Origin: Oryzomonas sagensis
GTDB taxonomy: Bacteria > Desulfobacterota > Desulfuromonadia > Geobacterales > Pseudopelobacteraceae
Length of the DNA: 64,000 nucleotides
Assembly: GCF_008802355.1 (NCBI RefSeq)
Contig: NZ_VZRA01000002.1
Location: 155,641-219,640, forward strand
Direction of reading: 5' to 3'
The position numbers were made by a program, and so were the translations under genes. The notes beneath the pieces were generated by a model, which was given only the letters and a program-made list of their open reading frames with translations, did not search any database and was not told where the DNA came from. Shown here piece by piece: positions 14,752-61,346 of the stretch; within the stretch, counting starts at the first letter, position 1, and each line of letters opens with the position of its first letter.

Positions 14752-17107
14752 TTGCTTGGTCTCCGTTTCCCGGCTTGCCGTGCTCGCCGGAGCTGGTTTT
14801 ATGCTCGGCCTTCTTTTGGCCGCTGTTTCCACCCTTGTAGACCGGTTCGGGATAATCGATCCGGTGGTGGAAGATGCCGTTCAGGATGCGGTTGAAGCTT
14901 TTGGCGATCTCGTGGAGGTTTTTGAGGGTCAGTTCGCACTCCTCAAGCTGGCCGTCCATGAAGATATTGTTGATGATCTTCTGCACCATCCCCTGGATGC
15001 GGTCCGGGGTGGGATTGACGAGGGTGCGGGAGGCCGCCTCCACGCAGTCGGCCAGCATGACGATGCCGGCTTCCCTGGTTTGGGGTTTGGGGCCGGGGTA
15101 GCGGAAATCCTTGTCCTCCACCGTCTGGCCGGTCGCCTCGGCCTGGGTCCTGGCCCGGTCGTAGAAGAATTTGATCAACCCGGTGCCGTGGTGCTGGCGG
15201 ATGATGTCGGTGATCGGCTGCCCCAGGTGCCGCTCCCGGGCCAGTTCGGCCCCCTCCTTGATATGGGAGATCAGGATCAGGGCGCTCATGCTGGGGGTCA
15301 GCTTGTCGTGGCGATTCTCTTCGCCCCCCAGGTTCTCGATGAAGTAGAGCGGCTTGGAGATCTTGCCGATGTCGTGGTAATAGGCGGCCACCCGTGCCAG
15401 CAGGGGATTGGCGCTGATGGACTCGGCGGCGGACTCCACCAGATTGCCCACCACCACGCTGTGGTGATAGGTGCCCGGGGCCCGCACCATCAGATCCCGC
15501 AGGAGTGGGGAATTGAGGTTGGCCAGTTCCAGGAGCTTGATGTCGGTGGTGTAATGGAACAGCGTCTCGATGAGCGGGATGAAGCCGGAAACGAGGCCGG
15601 CGCTCAATACGCCGCTCACCAGGGCGAAGAAAACCACATAGATCGTCTGCATGCTGAACAGGGTGGCGCTGGAGGTCTGAAAGGAGAGGGCCATGGCCAG
15701 GTTGACCACCGACACCTTCAGGCCGGCGGTGTAGATGGTGCTCCGGTCCGAGCACTGGCGCACCCCGTGGGCACCCACGATGCTCCCCAGCATGGTATAG
15801 ATCACCACCGTCATGTTGCCGTCGAACATGATCCCCAGGAGGGGGGCCAGGATGGCGCAATAGACCAGGGCCACCTCGGAGTTGATGAAGATGCGCACGA
15901 TCATGGGCCCGGCGGCAAAGGGGAACAGGTAGAAGAACGAGGCGGTGTCGATGTCCGGGAAGACCGGGCCGATATTGTGGGTGATCAGGATCGCGATCTT
16001 GAAGAGCAGGAAGCTGCCGATAATCAAGAGCGATATGGTCAGGATGTCCTTATTGGTCGGATTGAACTTGCGGATGTTCTTCAAGGCGAAACGGTAGGGG
16101 AAATAGAACAGCACCACGATCAGGGTGAAGATGCCGATGGCCGAATAGATACGGCTGCCGCCCCGGTTCTCCTGGAAGATCGCTTGCAGCTTGTGGGTTT
16201 GCTCGGGGCTGATCCGCTCCCCGACCCGGACGATCATCTCCCCCTTCTGGACCTTGAAGAGCACCGGCCTGACCGATTCCGTGGCCGCCTTGGCCCGGGC
16301 CTCCGACGCCTCGCGGTTGTAGAACAGGTTCGGCAGGAGGATGCGGGCGATCACGCGGGCGATGGCGCTCCCGTCGGTACGGTCGTTCTGGCCGGAAAAC
16401 TGCCAGGAAGTCACCAGTCTGCGGGCCTCCCGAATCTCGGTGTACTCCAGGGCCACGTCGCTGTCCTCGACGAGTTGGCCGTTGTCGTCGATCAGCTCCA
16501 AGCCCCTTCTGGTGTCGGTCTGAAAGGCCTTGCCGTCGAGGACGATCCGGCGGCGGTACAGTTCGTTCACCATGCGGGCGGCATCCGCCAGAAAAACCTT
16601 GTCCGAGGCGATATGGGTGAAGGCGTGGATATCCGCTGCGCTCAGTTCCGTGTCCAAAAGCGGCGTCAGCAGGGTCCGCCATTCGTGCGTACTCTTCTGG
16701 CTCTTGGCCGTACGCTCCTTGCGGACCGCGCCCACCACCTGCTCGAGTTTGCCGATGATGTAGGAGGGGACGCGGTCGCTGACGTTGTAGACCACCGGCG
16801 CGCTGTTGCCGGCCTCTTTGCGGCGCTGCTCGGTCAGGGCGTGATCTTCCACCAGATAGTCCTGGGGGGCGCGGATATCGGAGGTGGCGATGTCGCCCGG
16901 CTTGAATTCGGCCGAGTGGAACCGCTGGCCGGGGAGCAGGATGAGGGTCAGCAGGAGGGCGGTCGTAACAAGGAGGATAAACCTGTTCCGACGGGCTGTC
17001 AGTGGGTTGGAGAACCTTTTTACGACCACGTCCAGGAGGTTCGATCCCAGTTTGCTCAGGTAGGTCAGCGTATGTTGGCCCTGATTATCGGCAGGTTGGT
17101 CAGGCAT
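14651..17107 (-). CDS. pgpH: PgpH-like 7TM HD-domain phosphodiesterase
   Basis: 818 residues. One N-terminal TM helix (about 42-62), a large extracytoplasmic 7TMR-HDED domain, a cluster of seven TM helices (about 305-490) and a cytosolic HD domain with TYHHSVVVG and YYHDIGKISKP. In Firmicutes this family hydrolyses c-di-AMP; in this lineage the substrate is less certain. The C-terminal 60 residues are Lys/Gly-rich and probably disordered. It begins the pgpH-ybeY-dgkA-corC-lnt-prfB run, with a strong promoter 70 bp upstream. Confidence 0.9.
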   Translation of the reverse strand: MPDQPADNQGQHTLTYLSKLGSNLLDVVVKRFSNPLTARRNRFILLVTTALLLTLILLPGQRFHSAEFKPGDIATSDIRAPQDYLVEDHALTEQRRKEAGNSAPVVYNVSDRVPSYIIGKLEQVVGAVRKERTAKSQKSTHEWRTLLTPLLDTELSAADIHAFTHIASDKVFLADAARMVNELYRRRIVLDGKAFQTDTRRGLELIDDNGQLVEDSDVALEYTEIREARRLVTSWQFSGQNDRTDGSAIARVIARILLPNLFYNREASEARAKAATESVRPVLFKVQKGEMIVRVGERISPEQTHKLQAIFQENRGGSRIYSAIGIFTLIVVLFYFPYRFALKNIRKFNPTNKDILTISLLIIGSFLLFKIAILITHNIGPVFPDIDTASFFYLFPFAAGPMIVRIFINSEVALVYCAILAPLLGIMFDGNMTVVIYTMLGSIVGAHGVRQCSDRSTIYTAGLKVSVVNLAMALSFQTSSATLFSMQTIYVVFFALVSGVLSAGLVSGFIPLIETLFHYTTDIKLLELANLNSPLLRDLMVRAPGTYHHSVVVGNLVESAAESISANPLLARVAAYYHDIGKISKPLYFIENLGGEENRHDKLTPSMSALILISHIKEGAELARERHLGQPITDIIRQHHGTGLIKFFYDRARTQAEATGQTVEDKDFRYPGPKPQTREAGIVMLADCVEAASRTLVNPTPDRIQGMVQKIINNIFMDGQLEECELTLKNLHEIAKSFNRILNGIFHHRIDYPEPVYKGGNSGQKKAEHKTSSGEHGKPGNGDQASADTVEQPPETTPDHGDPPKKGGGEDLKRLGMF

Positions 17108-17998: not shown

Positions 17999-18403
17999 CT
18001 ACCTTTTAGAGGCAATGATCTCGTGCCAGTTGTCCCGGTTGAGCTCGACCAGAATGGTCTTGGCGCCGGCGTATTCGGGAGAATCTATCTCGATGGTGTA
18101 GTCGTCGCGGGAAAACGGCCCCGCCAGGCTGAAATTGCCGATATGGTCCGTGTCGGCACTTGATACGACCGCCGCTTGCGTTTTTCTCTTGAGTACGACA
18201 CGCACGCCGCTGATGGGGGTAACGCGGTCCTCCCGCAAGACCGTGCCGCTTATGAGGGTCGGCTTGATTGCCGCTGCCGTCGCATTGCTCGCGGGGCTGT
18301 GGGGGGCGTTCTGCCTGAGGGCGTCGTCGCCCTTACCGATGCAGCCGCTCAACGATATGCAGGAGATGCCGAAAAGTGTGGCGATAATGAATTTTCCGAA
18401 CAT
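17999..18403 (-). CDS. Lipoprotein with carboxypeptidase-regulatory-like (beta-sandwich) domain
   Basis: 134 residues. A signal peptide with lipobox LSGC (Cys ~21), a short linker, then a domain starting ISGTVLREDRVTPISGVRVVLK, the typical opening of CarboxypepD_reg/SpaA-like folds. It is probably anchored in the outer membrane or periplasm. It lies ~200 nt downstream of copy A of the twin-palindrome promoter, giving a long leader. Function unknown. Confidence 0.75.
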   Translation of the reverse strand: MFGKFIIATLFGISCISLSGCIGKGDDALRQNAPHSPASNATAAAIKPTLISGTVLREDRVTPISGVRVVLKRKTQAAVVSSADTDHIGNFSLAGPFSRDDYTIEIDSPEYAGAKTILVELNRDNWHEIIASKR

Positions 18404-18610: not shown

Positions 18611-18699
18611 CTCTTGCTCGGAGGTAAAGTATATTTCAATAGCAATTTCAGTATGTTAAAAAAATTAACATTTTTTGCGAGGTGTTAAAAAAAATAACA
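18611..18699 (-). promoter_or_regulatory. Twin-palindrome promoter, copy A
   Basis: Palindrome 1 TGTTAAAAAAATTAACA at 18654-18670, palindrome 2 TGTTAAAAAAAATAACA at 18683-18699 (29 bp apart). On the minus strand, TTGAAA (18634-18639) lies 14 bp from palindrome 1, and a second TTGAAA-like box lies one helical turn up. The -10 position (18611-18616, CAAGAG) is the weakest of the four copies. It faces the lipoprotein gene ending at 17999. Confidence 0.75.
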
Positions 18700-25101: not shown

Positions 25102-26805
25102 CTAGGGCACCTTGACCGTCACGGTCGGGGCGGTAATGCCGCCGAAGGTGGCGGTGAGGGTCGCCGTGCCGCTATCGACTCCCATGATCTGCCCCGGCAG
25201 CTGCTGGCTGTCGGCCGGGATGGCCACGTTGGCGTCGGAGGTCGTCCAGACCGTGTCCTTGGTCACGTCCGCGGTGGTGTTGTCGCTGTAGGTGACCGTG
25301 GCGGTGAAGGATGTGGCGGTGCCGATGGCCAGGGTCGTGGTGGTGCTGCCCGGGGTGATGGCCAGGCTTTTGGGGGTCTTGGCCGTGGCCGTGACGGTCG
25401 CCGTGATGGTCGTGCCGCCGTAGGTGGCGGTGACGGTGGCGGTGCCGGCGGCCACGGCGGTGACCTGGCCGCTTGCCAGCCCGGCGGTGCCGACCGTGGC
25501 GACGGAGGTGGCGTTGGAGCTCCAGGCGGCGCTGTCGGTCACGTCCTGGGACGTGCCGTCGTTAAAGATTGCGGTCAGGGCGAAGCGGCCGGTGGACCCC
25601 TTGGTCAGGCCGAGGCTGGCCGGGGCGATTGCCAGGTGATTGAGCGACGGGGCGGTGACCGTCACGGTGGCGGTCCTGCGCAGGGAGGCGGAGTCTGCCG
25701 TAATGGTGACGGCGCCGCTCGCCAGGGCGCTTGCCCACATCACATTGCCCGACGGCGCGGTCAGCGTGGCGCGGCTCGTGAAGTCCACCGTCCAGGTGAG
25801 CGCCCCGGTGATGTCGCGCGTCGTGCCGTTGCTGAAGACGCCGGTGGCGCTGATGCGCCCCATGGTTCCCTTGACGAGGGTCTGGCTGTTCGGGGAGATG
25901 CTGAAGCTCGTCAGGGTGCCCCCCGTCACCGTGAGGGTGGTTGTCCCGCGGACGCTGCCCAGGGCGGCGCTGATGGTGGTGGTGCCGGGGGCGGAGGTGA
26001 CGGTCGTCCCGGCGGTGGGGGCGGGCGCCGTGTTGGTGTTGGACGAGCCCCAGGCGACCTGACCGGTGATGTCGCCGGTGGTTCCGTCCGAATAGGTGCC
26101 GGTGGCCGTAAAGGTCGTTTTGGTCAGGGAGAGGACCGAGGGGGTGCCCGGCGAGACCGCAATGGATTGCAGCACCGGGGCGGTGGCGGTGAGGAGCGCC
26201 GTGCCGCTGATGCCGCCGAAGGTGGCGCTGATGGTCGTGGTGCCGGCGGCCAGGGCGGTGGCCAGCCCCTTGGTGTCGTCGGCCGCGTCGCTGACGGACG
26301 CCACGGTGGCGTCGCTGGAGGCCCAGGCGGCGTCGAAGGTCAGATCCTGCCTGCTGCCGTCCGAGAAGGTGCCGGCGGCCGCAAACTGCGTGGTCAACCC
26401 CTTGGCCAGGGTCGGAGCGGCGGGGGTGACGGTGATGGCGGTGGCGGTGGCCGCACTCACGTTCATGGTGTAGGTGGCCGACACGCCCCCCATGGTGGCG
26501 GTCAGGACGGCGCCGCCCGCCCCCTTGCCGGTCACCCGGCTCGGGTTGGCCGTGGTCGCGAAGGCGGCCACGGTGGGCGTATCGCTGGTCCAGGTCACCT
26601 TGTCGCTGATGTCGCGGGTGAACAGGCCCGAGTAATTGCCCGTGGCTTTGAGCTTGGTGGAGGTGTTCAGGGCGATGGTGGAGTAATCCGCCGTGATCGT
26701 GATGGCGGTGAGGGGGGTGATATCGTTCTCCCGGGTCGCGGCCCCATCCCAACCGCAGCCGGACAGCAGTACCATAAGAAAACCTGACCAGAGCAGGTTG
26801 CGCAT
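25102..26805 (-). CDS. Surface lipoprotein with six bacterial Ig-like (Big_2) repeats
   Basis: 567 residues. Lipobox LLSGC, then six tandem Ig-like repeats of ~85 residues, each with the pattern T/SxTKLxATGxYSDGxTxDVTxxVxWSSSxxxVA. Nothing but the repeats is present, so it is a rod-like adhesin or structural protein rather than an enzyme. ATG at 26805 directly begins the lipoprotein signal. Adjacent to a beta-barrel gene (24416-25066), it may be its surface partner. Confidence 0.85.
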   Translation of the reverse strand: MRNLLWSGFLMVLLSGCGWDGAATRENDITPLTAITITADYSTIALNTSTKLKATGNYSGLFTRDISDKVTWTSDTPTVAAFATTANPSRVTGKGAGGAVLTATMGGVSATYTMNVSAATATAITVTPAAPTLAKGLTTQFAAAGTFSDGSRQDLTFDAAWASSDATVASVSDAADDTKGLATALAAGTTTISATFGGISGTALLTATAPVLQSIAVSPGTPSVLSLTKTTFTATGTYSDGTTGDITGQVAWGSSNTNTAPAPTAGTTVTSAPGTTTISAALGSVRGTTTLTVTGGTLTSFSISPNSQTLVKGTMGRISATGVFSNGTTRDITGALTWTVDFTSRATLTAPSGNVMWASALASGAVTITADSASLRRTATVTVTAPSLNHLAIAPASLGLTKGSTGRFALTAIFNDGTSQDVTDSAAWSSNATSVATVGTAGLASGQVTAVAAGTATVTATYGGTTITATVTATAKTPKSLAITPGSTTTTLAIGTATSFTATVTYSDNTTADVTKDTVWTTSDANVAIPADSQQLPGQIMGVDSGTATLTATFGGITAPTVTVKVP

Positions 26806-27126
26806 ATACTTCCTCCCCAAATAGGTGTGAACCGCGTGATCGATGGAACTCTTATCCCGGTCCGCCGGGACGGAGGGAACAGAGTAAGCCGAAATCGCCG
26901 GTTTGGCAATGGCGGCGTGCGGCCCTGCCCGGCCTTTTTCTGCCCGGCTCCCGACGAACAGCCGGAAACAGCCCCGCATCTGTTGTGATATCCGGCAATG
27001 ATAGCATATTTTATCGCATGCTTTGTCCGGCAGGGAGGCCGCCATGTCGCCGCAGGCCGGGCAATGAAAAGGGGCGGTCCGTGTATGGGGCCGCCCCTTT
27101 TTTCATCGTCTGGCCGCACCGCGCGG
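26806..27126. other. Intergenic region with terminator
   Basis: Upstream region of the Ig-like lipoprotein gene. The only clear element is the terminator at 27067-27103; no gene is seen. Confidence 0.5.
27067..27103. terminator. Bidirectional rho-independent terminator
   Basis: AAAAGGGGCGG / CCGCCCCTTTTTT stem just after the stop of the HDOD-GGDEF gene (minus strand). Confidence 0.85.
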
Positions 27127-36593: not shown

Positions 36594-37148
36594 TCAATGC
36601 GGGGGCGCCGACGTACTGCTGCCGCTGGCGCTGCCGGTGCTGGCGTTGCCAGTGCCAGTGCCGTTGCTGCTGGGGAGACTGGGGCCGGTGCCGGTATCGG
36701 GGCTGGGACCCGCGCCGGTGCCGTTGCTGTTGATTATGCTGTAGGAGGATATGCCAATGGTTCCCGCTCCCGTAACCGTGGCAAAGGATACGGTTGCTAT
36801 GGGGCCGCTGCCGGAGAACGCCCTGTTACTGATCATGGCGATCCTGATGGTGCCGGGGGTGAGCGTGTTGGCCACCAGCATCGCCCCGGAGATGAACGTA
36901 CCCTGGGTCACGGTAGGGGATGACATGTTTGCTTTGTCGTAACTGAGGGTCAGTTCAATACCGGCAGTGTCGCTCAGATTGTCGCCCCGGATGACATAGA
37001 TACCGTTTCCCGAAGGGACGATGGATAGATGGCTGGCAGTCTGGTTGCCACTCGTAGGGGCGCTATCCCCGCTGCCGCACGCGGCAAGAAGGCACGCCGC
37101 GCCCACGGCCATGAGAACGCTCCTTATCCTCGTAACGATCTTGCCCAT
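36594..37148 (-). CDS. Cohesin-like lipoprotein 1
   Basis: 184 residues. Lipobox LLAAC, then a beta-sandwich with the cohesin-type pattern GIYVIRGDNLSDTAGIELTLSYD...GPIATVSFATV, followed by a ~45-residue Ser/Gly/Thr tail that is probably disordered. ATG at 37148 follows GGGGGG. It is a paralogue of 37448-37936 but has a different promoter: the twin-palindrome type. It may be an outer-membrane or surface protein; binding partner unknown. Confidence 0.78.
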   Translation of the reverse strand: MGKIVTRIRSVLMAVGAACLLAACGSGDSAPTSGNQTASHLSIVPSGNGIYVIRGDNLSDTAGIELTLSYDKANMSSPTVTQGTFISGAMLVANTLTPGTIRIAMISNRAFSGSGPIATVSFATVTGAGTIGISSYSIINSNGTGAGPSPDTGTGPSLPSSNGTGTGNASTGSASGSSTSAPPH

Positions 37149-37250
37149 CGATACCCCCCATGATACTGCCATTGCTGAATGCTGCCTGTTCTCCGCCGCG
37201 CCTCATTCAAAATGTGCCGCAAATGTGCACTTCATAAAGAGCTGGTACCG

Positions 37251-37338
37251 GTTGTATCCCAGAAAAATACATATTTCAACTGTAATTTCAATATGTTAAA
37301 AAAATTAACACTTTCCTCGGATGGTAAAAAAAATAACA
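37251..37338 (-). promoter_or_regulatory. Twin-palindrome promoter, copy B
   Basis: Palindromes at 37294-37310 (TGTTAAAAAAATTAACA) and 37322-37338 (TGGTAAAAAAAATAACA). Minus strand TTGAAA at 37274-37279, 17-bp spacer, TACAAC at 37251-37256. Gap from palindrome 1 to -35 is 14 bp. It drives cohesin-like lipoprotein 1. Confidence 0.82.
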
Positions 37339-43470: not shown

Positions 43471-43545
43471 AATCCCATCGTCTAGTGGTTAGGACGCTGG
43501 CCTCTCACGCCGGTAACAGGGGTTCAAATCCCCTTGGGATTACCA
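43471..43545 (+). tRNA. tRNA-Glu (anticodon CTC)
   Basis: 75 nt with encoded CCA. Acceptor AATCCCA / TGGGATT, D-arm GTCTAGTGGTTAGGAC, anticodon loop CCTCTCA (CTC), T-arm GGGGTTCAAATCCCC. A terminator follows. No repeat of its 3' end was found nearby. Confidence 0.96.
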
Positions 43546-58903: not shown

Positions 58904-60163
58904 CTACGCAGCCCCCGGCTCCGCAACCGCTGCCTGCGCCGCGTGAAACGCCTCGCCGATCTTCCCTTCCAGGTTCAGCAGCACATTGCAGATTACCAGC
59001 CGGTCCAGATTGGAATCCAGGGTCAAAAGCGCTGTGGTGATGTGCAACAGCGAGATCGCCGCGCCGTGGCCCGGATCGGCCAGGCCGAGATTGCTGGGGC
59101 CGGAGAGGGACAGTTCCGATGTCTGGGGGAGCAGGCCGGCTTTGGACAGGAGCCCCCTGGGGCTGTCGGGCGCGCTCTGGCCGGCCGTTTTGTAATAGGG
59201 GCGCAGGTGGTCCGGGCCCACATCCGCCTCCAAATCGGCAAAGGTCGGGTCCTCCGTGCCCAACGCCGTGGCGGCCCAGCCGTAGTCGTTTTCATAGCTT
59301 GTGCCGTATTTTGCGACCAGGGCAAGGTAATTGTCCTTGAGGGCGGCGTACTCTCCCTCGTCCAGTTTCGGGCACCCCACCTCCCCGCAGTGGGCCTGAT
59401 ACCGTTGGGCCGCCCGGTACTCCATAATGTCGCCATGGTACAGATACCGCTCGGCAATGTCGTTGCCGTGGCTGCGCACCAACGCGGCGATGACCGCCAT
59501 TTCGCGCAGGGAACGCCACCGGGCGTGGGCGCCGTCGGCATAGCCGTTTTTCAGCAGGCAGATGATCTCCGCGCAGGTCCGGCACCCCTTGGCGTGGAGC
59601 CGTGTGAGGACATCGAAGACCAGATCGCCCTCTTTGGCGGCTTTCGGCCAATAGTAATCGTTGAAATTGTTTCCCGATTCCAGGGCGATGTCATAGAACA
59701 TCTCGAGCAGGTCGACGGCCGTGCCCCAGGTATGGTCCAGGTCGGCGCTGAACTGTTTGAGTTCCTTTCGGGCGTGTTTCTGATACTGCTTGAAATTCTT
59801 TTTCAAGGTGTCAAGGATGATATCCGCGACTTCCACCGCTATCTCGGGCAGGGAATGGGACAGGTTCTTGGCGATTTCTTCGAAAGCGTCGGCCAGGTCC
59901 TTTTTGTGGTCGATTTCGATGCGGACGCCGCTACTCTCAAATTCCGTCAAATCCTCGGGTAGTTCCAGGGCCTCGCTTTCGTCGAACTTGAAGGTGCCGA
60001 TATCCGCTTTGCTGGATATGACCTGTTCCAGTTCCTTGATCTGCTTGTTGCTGAGAACGAACCCCTGATCCCGGAATTTCTTCAAAAGGATATGAACGAT
60101 AACCCGTTCCTCGGAGAGGGTCTTTGCCAGGGTCGTTTCAAACAGGTCTTGCAGTGTGTTCAT
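58904..60163 (-). CDS. DUF5677-like protein
   Basis: 419 residues, soluble and mainly helical. The central part, LLKNGYADGAHARWRSLREMAVIAALVRSHG, resembles DUF5677 proteins, with conserved Arg and Glu. Function unknown. Start at 60163; a longer frame upstream runs into the regulatory motif and is rejected. It is preceded by copy C of the twin-palindrome promoter, its start site ~45 bp upstream. Confidence 0.75.
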   Translation of the reverse strand: MNTLQDLFETTLAKTLSEERVIVHILLKKFRDQGFVLSNKQIKELEQVISSKADIGTFKFDESEALELPEDLTEFESSGVRIEIDHKKDLADAFEEIAKNLSHSLPEIAVEVADIILDTLKKNFKQYQKHARKELKQFSADLDHTWGTAVDLLEMFYDIALESGNNFNDYYWPKAAKEGDLVFDVLTRLHAKGCRTCAEIICLLKNGYADGAHARWRSLREMAVIAALVRSHGNDIAERYLYHGDIMEYRAAQRYQAHCGEVGCPKLDEGEYAALKDNYLALVAKYGTSYENDYGWAATALGTEDPTFADLEADVGPDHLRPYYKTAGQSAPDSPRGLLSKAGLLPQTSELSLSGPSNLGLADPGHGAAISLLHITTALLTLDSNLDRLVICNVLLNLEGKIGEAFHAAQAAVAEPGAA

Positions 60164-60215: not shown

Positions 60216-60304
60216 CTTCTACTCCCCGTAAACATACATTTCAATCGCAAAATCAATATGTTAAAAATATTAACACTCCTGAGAAAGTGTTAAAAAATTT
60301 AACA
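60216..60304 (-). promoter_or_regulatory. Twin-palindrome promoter, copy C
   Basis: Palindromes at 60259-60275 (TGTTAAAAATATTAACA) and 60288-60304 (TGTTAAAAAATTTAACA). Minus strand TTGAAA at 60239-60244, 17-bp spacer, TAGAAG at 60216-60221. Palindrome-to--35 gap 14 bp. It drives the DUF5677-like gene. Confidence 0.85.
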
Positions 60305-60342: not shown

Positions 60343-60373
60343 AAAAAAGACGCCCGGAACTCGCCCGGACGCC
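60343..60373 (-). terminator. Rho-independent terminator
   Basis: GGCGTCCGG / CCGGGCGTC with G-U pairs and a U-tract in the minus direction, after the beta-barrel gene. Confidence 0.8.
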
Positions 60374-60422
60374 TCTGGTTGTGTCATTATGATACGGCCC
60401 CTGGTCAGTGGCACAGCAGCCG

Positions 60423-61022
60423 TCAGAAGCTGTAGCGGAAGCCCCCGGAGAAGCTGCTGTTCAGGTAGGAGAGGCTTACCCCGTCCTTTGAAAAATCGGA
60501 CCCGGCGCCCTGGAATTTGTACGAAAAATCGAGGGCTATATGCTGGTCCACCGCAATGGTCGTCCCGACGGCGATCTGGTAACCGAACACCGTATCGTCA
60601 TACTTGGTTCCCTGGACCTGCAGTTCGCCATCCAGCACGCCAAGCCCTGCGCCGACATAGGGCGTGAAGATCGTGCCTGTTTTGATGTCATAGTAGCCGT
60701 TCACCAGGTAGCTCATGACTTTGACATTCGTATCGTCCACCGAGAGGCTGCCGCCGGGTCCCGAGAGGTGGTCCACGTCGGCTTTCCGGTAGCCGAATTC
60801 AAATTCCAGCCTCACCGGGTCGAAATTATAGCCCGCATTGGCGCCAAAGCCATACCCGGAATTGTAGTTGGTCGTGGCCGTGACACTGCTGCCCGACACC
60901 TTCATGTCGGCATCGTGAAAGATGCTCACGCCGCCCGAGACCCCGAGGTAAGGCCCGGCCGCACAAGCCGACCCGGTCGTTGCCGCCAGAAACAATCCCA
61001 CCACCAATGCCTTGATTCTCAT
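60423..61022 (-). CDS. Outer-membrane beta-barrel (opacity/Msp-type)
   Basis: 199 residues. Signal peptide ending SACAA, strands such as PYLGVSGGVSIFHDAD, VRLEFEFGYRKADV, FTPYVGAGLGVL; last strand FSGGFRYSF ends in Phe. Eight-stranded barrel expected. Promoter is copy D of the twin-palindrome type, with a ~120-nt leader. Confidence 0.85.
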   Translation of the reverse strand: MRIKALVVGLFLAATTGSACAAGPYLGVSGGVSIFHDADMKVSGSSVTATTNYNSGYGFGANAGYNFDPVRLEFEFGYRKADVDHLSGPGGSLSVDDTNVKVMSYLVNGYYDIKTGTIFTPYVGAGLGVLDGELQVQGTKYDDTVFGYQIAVGTTIAVDQHIALDFSYKFQGAGSDFSKDGVSLSYLNSSFSGGFRYSF

Positions 61023-61150: not shown

Positions 61151-61239
61151 CTTCTACGCCACGCTCCTGCACATTTCAATCATAATTTCAATATGTTAAA
61201 AAAATTAACACTATCCTGGGAGTGTTAAAAAAATTACCA
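61151..61239 (-). promoter_or_regulatory. Twin-palindrome promoter, copy D
   Basis: Palindromes at 61194-61210 (TGTTAAAAAAATTAACA) and 61223-61239 (TGTTAAAAAAATTACCA). Minus strand TTGAAA at 61174-61179, 17-bp spacer, TAGAAG at 61151-61156, the same hexamers as copy C. Gap 14 bp. It drives the beta-barrel gene. Confidence 0.87.
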
Positions 61240-61274: not shown

Positions 61275-61303
61275 AAAAAAGGCCCCCGGAACACCCCGGG
61301 GAC
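61275..61303 (-). terminator. Rho-independent terminator
   Basis: GGTCCCCGGG / CCGGGGGCC stem with a U-tract in the minus direction, after the PilZ gene at 61347. Confidence 0.8.
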
Positions 61304-61346
61304 CTCTGCTTGTATCATTATGACACAACCGCGAACGACCGCCGGG

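Follow-up and report, generated by a model that had tools for sequence, protein, structure and literature searches.

A genus-specific repeat of Oryzomonas as a possible standing promoter for exchangeable genes

The main result of our analysis is a repeated block with putative terminator, operator and promoter parts in the paddy-soil bacterium Oryzomonas sagensis Red100 and its relatives. This block might be a genus-specific module that is likely controlled by an NtrC-type regulator and serves as a standing promoter for exchangeable genes, a reading to which we assign a probability of about 0.5. Bacteria must wire foreign genes into their regulation, and if the reading is true, a fixed control module outlasting the genes that are swapped behind it would be a simple answer to this problem, neither integron nor silencer, and genes on arrival would come under a single shared switch. 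Moreover, an uncharacterised radical-SAM peptide system would gain a predicted signalling output in a cultured species, consisting of a regulator, a DNA site and about 20 target sites.

Occurrence and anatomy of the block

The genome of O. sagensis comprises 3,609,742 bases, the number also printed in Table 2 of PMC7285026, and the genus Oryzomonas, represented here by six genomes (G000-G005, G000 being that of O. sagensis itself), is placed in the Geobacteraceae. The window, i.e. the whole stretch of 64,000 nucleotides that was analysed, corresponds to G000:C2:155641-219640. A preliminary description had named four near-identical blocks in it, each with two TGTTAA-N5-TTAACA palindromes 28-29 bp apart. 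All four are found at the positions given there and belong to one repeat family, the other three being 63-71% identical to the reference copy. The eight palindromes have 0-2 mismatches (shuffles expect 0.40, and 0 of 100 shuffles reach eight), and their start-to-start spacing is 29, 28, 29 and 29. The features are listed with their window positions.

61151..61156, minus strand: -10-like hexamer TAGAAG of the first block (sequence; family-wide 17-bp spacing)
61174..61179, minus strand: -35-like hexamer TTGAAA of the first block (sequence; family spacing)
61194..61210, no strand: proximal palindrome TGTTAAAAAAATTAACA of the first block, 0 mismatches (pattern search)
61223..61239, no strand: distal palindrome of the first block, 1 mismatch (pattern search)
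61275..61304, minus strand: terminator-like hairpin with T-run of the first block, upstream part of the conserved unit (sequence, hairpin energy)
61311..61327, no strand: left dyad TGTATCATTATGACACA (consensus TGTATCAAAATGATACA) of the first block, 2 mismatches, at -117
60426..61022, minus strand: OMP beta-barrel gene behind the first block, coding part (Pfam PF13505)
60216..60304, minus strand: second block with -10-like TAGAAG, TTGAAA and two perfect palindromes (sequence)
60343..60373, minus strand: terminator-like hairpin of the second block (sequence, hairpin energy)
60380..60396, no strand: left dyad of the second block, 3 mismatches
58907..60163, minus strand: DUF5677 gene behind the second block, coding part (Pfam PF18928, E 2.4e-23)
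37251..37338, minus strand: third block with -10-like TACAAC, distal palindrome with 2 mismatches (sequence)
36597..37172, minus strand: cohesin-like lipoprotein gene behind the third block (E 2.6e-4, under the Pfam cut-off)
18611..18699, minus strand: fourth block with degenerate -10 CAAGAG, without terminator, between divergent genes
18002..18403, minus strand: CarboxypepD_reg-type lipoprotein gene behind the fourth block (Pfam)

The labels given earlier to the four downstream genes (lipoprotein, cohesin-like lipoprotein, DUF5677 and beta-barrel protein) agree with these assignments, the cohesin-like one staying under the Pfam cut-off. The copy at 18611 is deviant in its poor -10 box, the lack of a terminator and its divergent neighbours.

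A search of the whole genome and of related genomes had been suggested in the preliminary description. With a sequence-only model of the block (R1; 65-bp core, built from 19 copies), it yields 20 copies at E ≤ 1e-9 in O. sagensis and 9 to 40 copies at E ≤ 0.01 in each of the six genus genomes. Among 277 genomes of the class, the block is present at E ≤ 1e-6 in all six genus genomes and absent at this threshold from the 271 others; single weak R1 matches (E 0.001-0.01) occur in 6 of 51 genomes outside the genus. Among the 80 stretches listed in a scan across named genomes, those above 30 bits come solely from Oryzomonas or from 'Geobacter sp. palsa_1151', which is probably G005. The block is genus-specific to Oryzomonas among the genomes searched. 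Perfect TGTTAA-N5-TTAACA sites number 19 in the O. sagensis genome, 13 inside blocks of the repeat family and six elsewhere, and the reversed control pattern is found 0 times. Among the papers searched, none combines TGTTAA and TTAACA with palindromes.

Read toward the controlled gene, the block consists of the dyad TGTATCAAAATGATACA, a terminator-like hairpin with a T-run and TGTGAAAACAG, followed by one or two 17-bp palindromes, TTGA, TTGAAA, 17 bp, TAGAAG and GGG, after which the conservation ends. The two-palindrome block of about 90 bp that was first described is present, but with dyad and terminator the conserved unit reaches about 90 bp further upstream, and the two-palindrome form is a minority (39 of 94 elements). 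These 94 elements come from four Oryzomonas genomes (G000, G002, G003, G004); 84 have both boxes and 10 have no recognisable boxes. The distance between TTGAAA and TAGAAG is 17 bp, as had been claimed, in 79 of the 84 copies (14, 15, 16, 16 and 23 bp in the others), a constancy toward which detection with a model of the block itself is biased, as it is toward strong boxes. The exact 14-bp gap that had been described between palindrome and TTGAAA holds for 30 of 31 double-palindrome copies, but in 50 of 53 single-palindrome copies the gap is 13 bp, and the two forms are therefore distinct subtypes. The start of the upstream TTGA box precedes TTGAAA by 12 nt in 28 of 31 doubles and by 11 nt in 45 of 53 singles, close to the second TTGAAA-like box reported 11 bp upstream. 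Within the 79 copies with 17-bp spacing, the information content is 1.3-2.0 bits at the box positions and below 1 bit at 11 of the 17 positions of the spacer, values biased toward strong boxes by the selection of copies for their boxes. The left dyad (at most 5 mismatches) occurs in 75 of the 94 copies, its usual distance upstream of the proximal palindrome being about 91 nt in singles and about 120 nt in doubles; it is missing in five G001 and six G005 copies (best match at least 7 mismatches). The regular spacing had been taken as an argument against chance or a mobile repeat. The block is a dispersed repeat family.

From these sequence features we infer the terminator and promoter roles of the block parts. 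In comparison with the housekeeping sigma consensus (-35 TTGACA, -10 TATAAT), TTGAAA agrees and a spacing of 16-17 bp is found in 81 of 84 copies. The -10-like TAGAAG retains T1, A2, A4 and A5 but not T6, and this lack of the final T counts against our explanation. If transcription began about 7 bp past the -10 box, the palindrome centres would lie near -57/-58 and -87, in line with the -58 and -87 estimated before. A hairpin with T-run is found in 48 of 64 elements whose upstream gene runs toward the block versus 14 of 30 others (p = 0.010, four genomes), and being intact more often behind a co-directional gene is as expected for a terminator.

Palindromes outside the block and the candidate regulator

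Behind the geopeptide radical SAM maturase gene of O. sagensis (TIGR04280, 653 bits, cut-off 400), a row of three palindromes with distances of 65 and 77 bp starts after 6 nt. This region is present in five of the six genus genomes searched and was not found in G001. In the five genomes all three palindromes are kept (0-1 mismatches, 1-2 in G005) and most of the remaining spacer is not. A similar triple, 66 and 55 bp apart, precedes a receiver-domain gene; G002 and G004 retain it, in G001 it has decayed, and only fragments were found in G003 and no match in G005. Behind this triple, at a distance of 85-87 bp, stands TGGCACGAGAGTTGAT in G000, G002 and G004, which comes close to a sigma-54 promoter, GA replacing GC, and is also seen in the G001 sequence. 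Among the papers searched, none mentions 'geopeptide'.

We scanned 26 palindrome-only loci in both directions for sigma-54 promoters, taking the best score within 350 bp (background 99th percentile 20). A score of at least 21 is reached in six of them, of which three are distinct (L018; L033 with its orthologs L222 and L223; L236 with L239), and 20 of the 26 do not reach it. The sites of L018, L033 and L239 end in GA and not in GC, and GG-N10-GC stands before a regulator gene in L267/L268. For 105 copies of the repeated block, the mean best score is 16.14 versus 16.24 for the background, and 6.7% of them reach the background's 95th percentile, hence nothing above background. One palindrome of G042 (L244:1970-1986) lies among DnaA-box-like sequences, possibly a replication origin.

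The palindrome-only sites beside the geopeptide radical-SAM gene point to the NtrC-type response regulator of that locus as the likely binder of the palindromes. The preliminary description had left the binding protein without a candidate, a statement now replaced by this specific one. The O. sagensis gene (C3:162113-163549) lies about 6 kb from the triple palindrome, in a cluster that also encodes a TonB receptor, an ABC-type binding protein and the maturase; the regulator itself (L260:8113-9546) has a REC domain, a sigma-54 AAA+ domain with GAFTGA and a Fis-type HTH (Pfam).

The distribution of palindromes and regulator is consistent with this assignment. Perfect palindromes number 19, 22 (G002), 44 (G003) and 29 in four Oryzomonas genomes, 10 in G039 and 8 in G042, and at most one in each of the other 51 of 57 genomes. 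G039 and G042 are two of the four genomes of genus g10, from another family of the order, and in both of them palindromes stand upstream of a response-regulator gene with a sigma-54 AAA+ domain (a Fis-type HTH match in one), with the GG-N10-GC sites TGGCGTGGTTATTGCA and TGGCGTGGATATTGCA between palindrome and gene. Among the matches listed for the 57 genomes, relatives of this regulator reach 74% in G042, 65-66% in five Oryzomonas genomes, 61% in G041 and G051, and at most 56% in others. Also among the matches listed, relatives of at least 65% occur in seven of 57 genomes, namely the six palindrome-rich ones and G005 (Fisher 1.9e-7 on [[6,0],[1,50]] for palindrome richness versus regulator presence, not corrected for relatedness). 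The helix motif, read in 11 genomes, is CRQTV in G000, G002, G003, G004, G005, G039 and G042, TRQTL in G041, GRHTL in G051, and SRPTL in G009 and G019. Six of the seven CRQTV genomes hold 8-44 perfect palindromes; in the other 50 genomes the maximum is one.

The two remaining genus genomes differ from this picture in different ways. G001 has no close regulator relative and no perfect palindrome, whereas G005 has a CRQTV regulator, with a different C-terminus, yet only one perfect palindrome. Block palindromes average 3.1 mismatches in G001 and 3.0 in G005 versus 0.75-1.1 elsewhere (p = 1.7e-5, 14 versus 108 copies), and the boxes TTGAAA and GTAGAAG show no significant deterioration in these two genomes (p = 0.20 and 0.73). 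Two histories would fit: an older promoter repeat gained its operators in the ancestor shared by the other four species, with G001 and G005 perhaps branching off before that, or the operators decayed in these two genomes. That G005 has the regulator but palindromes as poor as those of G001, which has no close regulator relative, counts against our explanation. The same applies to the GAFTGA motif of the regulator, given that in the repeated block sigma-54-like promoters do not exceed the background.

The regulator/palindrome profile leans on five genomes of one genus, which also counts against our explanation. The regulon might thus exist as described with another protein as binder, the match to the NtrC-type regulator coming from shared ancestry. 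The TetR-family gene of O. sagensis, which has a one-mismatch palindrome in its 5' region (L023:3209-3225) and is also carried by G002 and G004, would fit such a role. We consider this alternative unlikely, since G001 has neither a close regulator relative nor a perfect palindrome and within g10 G039 and G042 have both and G036 and G044 neither, and since in both families the gene cluster of the regulator itself has palindromes. TetR itself was rejected as binder: among the six genus genomes its close relatives are confined to G000, G002 and G004, and G003, without one, has 44 palindromes.

Short, mostly Cys-containing peptides are encoded at the regulator loci (L265:9997-10131; L266:3561-3650; L267:3122-3226; L260:14144-14224). 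They resemble precursor peptides for the maturase and adjoin the maturase gene where examined (L260, L265, L267). Matches to geopeptide precursors are strong only at L265, L266 and L267 and weak (E 0.7) at L260, with O. sagensis's own maturase. Geopeptide precursors at the blocks were therefore rejected, the strong matches being confined to these three among the loci examined.

Genes around the block and exchange of downstream DNA

In total, 122 elements were detected; the 17 below 30 bits were excluded from gene and synteny counts and retained in the between-genome comparison of palindrome mismatches. Genes were called by a simple script based on open reading frames and codon bias, errors included (it overlooked the DUF5677 gene, which was then entered manually). 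Of 101 called downstream genes, 86 are co-oriented and point away from the block (p = 2.8e-13), the median start lying 185 nt from the proximal palindrome, and upstream genes run toward the block in 71 of 105. Of the 101 downstream proteins, 10 from O. sagensis and 60 chosen from the rest, two of them added manually, were scanned. Among 60 of them 121 Pfam families were matched, the 25 listed including MCPs, diguanylate cyclase, caspase, protein kinase and LysE; the 25 listed of 141 PADLOC families (defence models; 60 proteins) include type I methyltransferase, SIR2, SngA and IetA. Judging from these matches, the genes behind the blocks have no function in common, and most blocks stand before genes that often differ between related species. 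The promoter with operators proposed in the preliminary description is thus favoured by near-constant spacing, conservation and the co-orientation of 86 of 101 genes. Ordinary promoters of fixed targets, however, are not supported, because the blocks form a dispersed repeat family with a terminator, the gene behind them changes and the functions are unrelated.

Comparison between species shows that as a rule the block keeps its place next to the upstream gene and the DNA behind it is replaced. Among pairs of blocks at least 85% identical (four genomes, flanks of at least 1 kb), both flanks are kept in 9, only the upstream flank in 17 and only the downstream flank in 3 (sign test 0.0026), the pairs not being independent and the 3 being an upper figure, as L028/L055 is syntenic on both sides in another comparison. 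With a threshold of 70% identity the numbers are 12, 20 and 8 (p = 0.036). The homology between orthologous blocks ends at the right edge in L016/L173 (+66), L024/L208 (+68), L031/L178 (+58) and window 60275/L209 (+69); in other pairs it stops at +38 to +49 or extends as far as about +89 to +187. Synteny in L027/L209 resumes after a segment of 2.65 kb in one species and 4.67 kb in the other. The opposite case also occurs: a DUF2726 gene and a large lipoprotein-like gene (73-79% identity) lie behind blocks in different surroundings across species. In 27 pairs of equal palindrome class and with conserved upstream flank, replacement of the downstream DNA makes no difference to the right half of the block, with 88% identity in the 15 pairs that show it and likewise in the 12 that kept this DNA, which argues that the promoter-like part belongs to the place and not to the gene. 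Chimeric blocks by crossover inside the block are suggested at one locus; since the right half is equally conserved, they are not general.

One might also regard the block primarily as a recombination site like integron attC/attI, with promoter-like boxes that are incidental. In at least seven pairs the interspecies homology stops at or just behind the right end (+58 to +69). Furthermore, G002 has a two-gene insertion, which we take to resemble the MqsR/MqsA toxin-antitoxin, exactly at the left edge of the block matching window 60275 (L209, about 15640-16520), and G003 and G004 have tandem copies at distances of 165-226 bp, without a called gene in between (L050:4550/4776; L051:6581/6746; L057:3341/3127). 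However, an integron integrase (TIGR02249) is over the cut-off in none of the six genus genomes, the break points are scattered (+38 up to about +187), and a clean empty site was not encountered, the block in L031/L178 being separated from the shared flank by about 48 bp of unrelated sequence. Together with the promoter-like boxes at fixed spacing, this makes a recombination site quite improbable, and ordinary recombination between homologous flanks or between repeats would be the default way of cassette exchange. Proteins encoded at L026:5301-6236 and L154:3281-4222, behind blocks or closing a variable segment, presumably resemble REP-associated transposases, and REP-like GTAGACCTGACCC repeats follow some blocks or close a variable segment.

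The acquired-looking genes downstream would also fit AT-rich palindromes that nucleate a xenogeneic silencer, e.g. a Ros/MucR protein, quieting acquired genes. MucR is described as an H-NS-like silencer in the part of the literature consulted, and a MucR-like gene lies beside one lone palindrome (L035). Such a silencer is nevertheless very unlikely: a MucR protein is present in 48 of 57 relatives, too widespread for a specific binder, whereas palindromes are abundant in six, and G002 has a 63% relative of the L035 MucR copy but 22 palindromes. Finally, a passive MITE-like intergenic repeat without regulatory role would account for the multi-copy dispersal and the 63-71% identity of the window copies, but is hardly tenable, considering that orthologous copies stay in place, that boxes and palindromes are better conserved between species than their surroundings, and that the downstream orientation is strongly biased.

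Proposed mechanism and closest known systems

In the module that we propose, the hairpin would end the upstream transcript and RNA polymerase would start from TTGAAA-N17-TAGAAG, about 7 bp downstream. The response regulator of the geopeptide locus would bind the palindromes at about -57/-58 and -87, most likely activating, although its role as an activator at the repeated block is a guess. At the palindrome-only sites (two or three palindromes, 55-77 bp apart), the regulator would be a classical enhancer protein acting on sigma-54 promoters, and in the second family an enhancer-type sigma-54 site would stand before the regulator's own gene. A wider picture, which we offer tentatively, is that about 20 or more ready-made expression sockets of terminator, operator and promoter are scattered along the Oryzomonas chromosome, so that arrivals, including defence genes, would at once be insulated from the upstream transcript, placed under the geopeptide-locus two-component system and pre-wired without an integron integrase.

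Integron gene cassettes are interchangeable genes behind a common promoter. Like these, the Oryzomonas blocks combine a constant control element with exchangeable genes behind it, some of defence type; unlike integrons, they are scattered over the genome, with no integrase above the cut-off and no precise recombination point seen. PrsK/PrsR control PEP-CTERM genes, with a two-component enhancer protein and many dispersed targets. The candidate is likewise a two-component enhancer-type protein with many dispersed predicted targets, but it scores 289.8 bits against a cut-off of 502.6 for NCBIfam PEP_resp_reg (companion name PEP_his_kin) and resides in a geopeptide radical-SAM locus.

With its REC domain, GAFTGA-bearing AAA+ sigma-54 domain and Fis-type HTH, the candidate resembles the NtrC family, and sigma-54-like promoters lie near some palindrome-only sites as in NtrC systems. 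The NtrC box of E. coli, as given in the part of PMC8743547 consulted, is a 17-bp palindrome site (TGCACCAnnnTGGTGCA), and the Oryzomonas site is also a 17-bp TG...CA palindrome that is often multiple; its half-site, however, is TGTTAA and not TGCACC (PMC8743547). Also unlike NtrC systems, most sites of the O. sagensis genome are part of the repeated block, which carries a -35/-10-like pair and no sigma-54-like promoter beyond background level.

In a relative, Geobacter metallireducens, 'global regulator binding sites' are described in the part of PMC2700814 consulted as multi-copy, intergenic and mostly paired, like the Oryzomonas blocks, with insertion sequences near some. Unlike the TGTTAA palindromes, these are short tandem repeats (GTTGCTYN, TCTCCGTS, MTYCTGA, CCYTC), and three of the four site classes are described there as unique to that species (PMC2700814).

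Rfam at gathering thresholds gave two tRNAs and nothing else for the window and eight loci. A tRNA gene lies at 43471-43542 of the window, and an open reading frame at 25102-27045 contains several internal repeats of 40-129 nt (families D2-D6).
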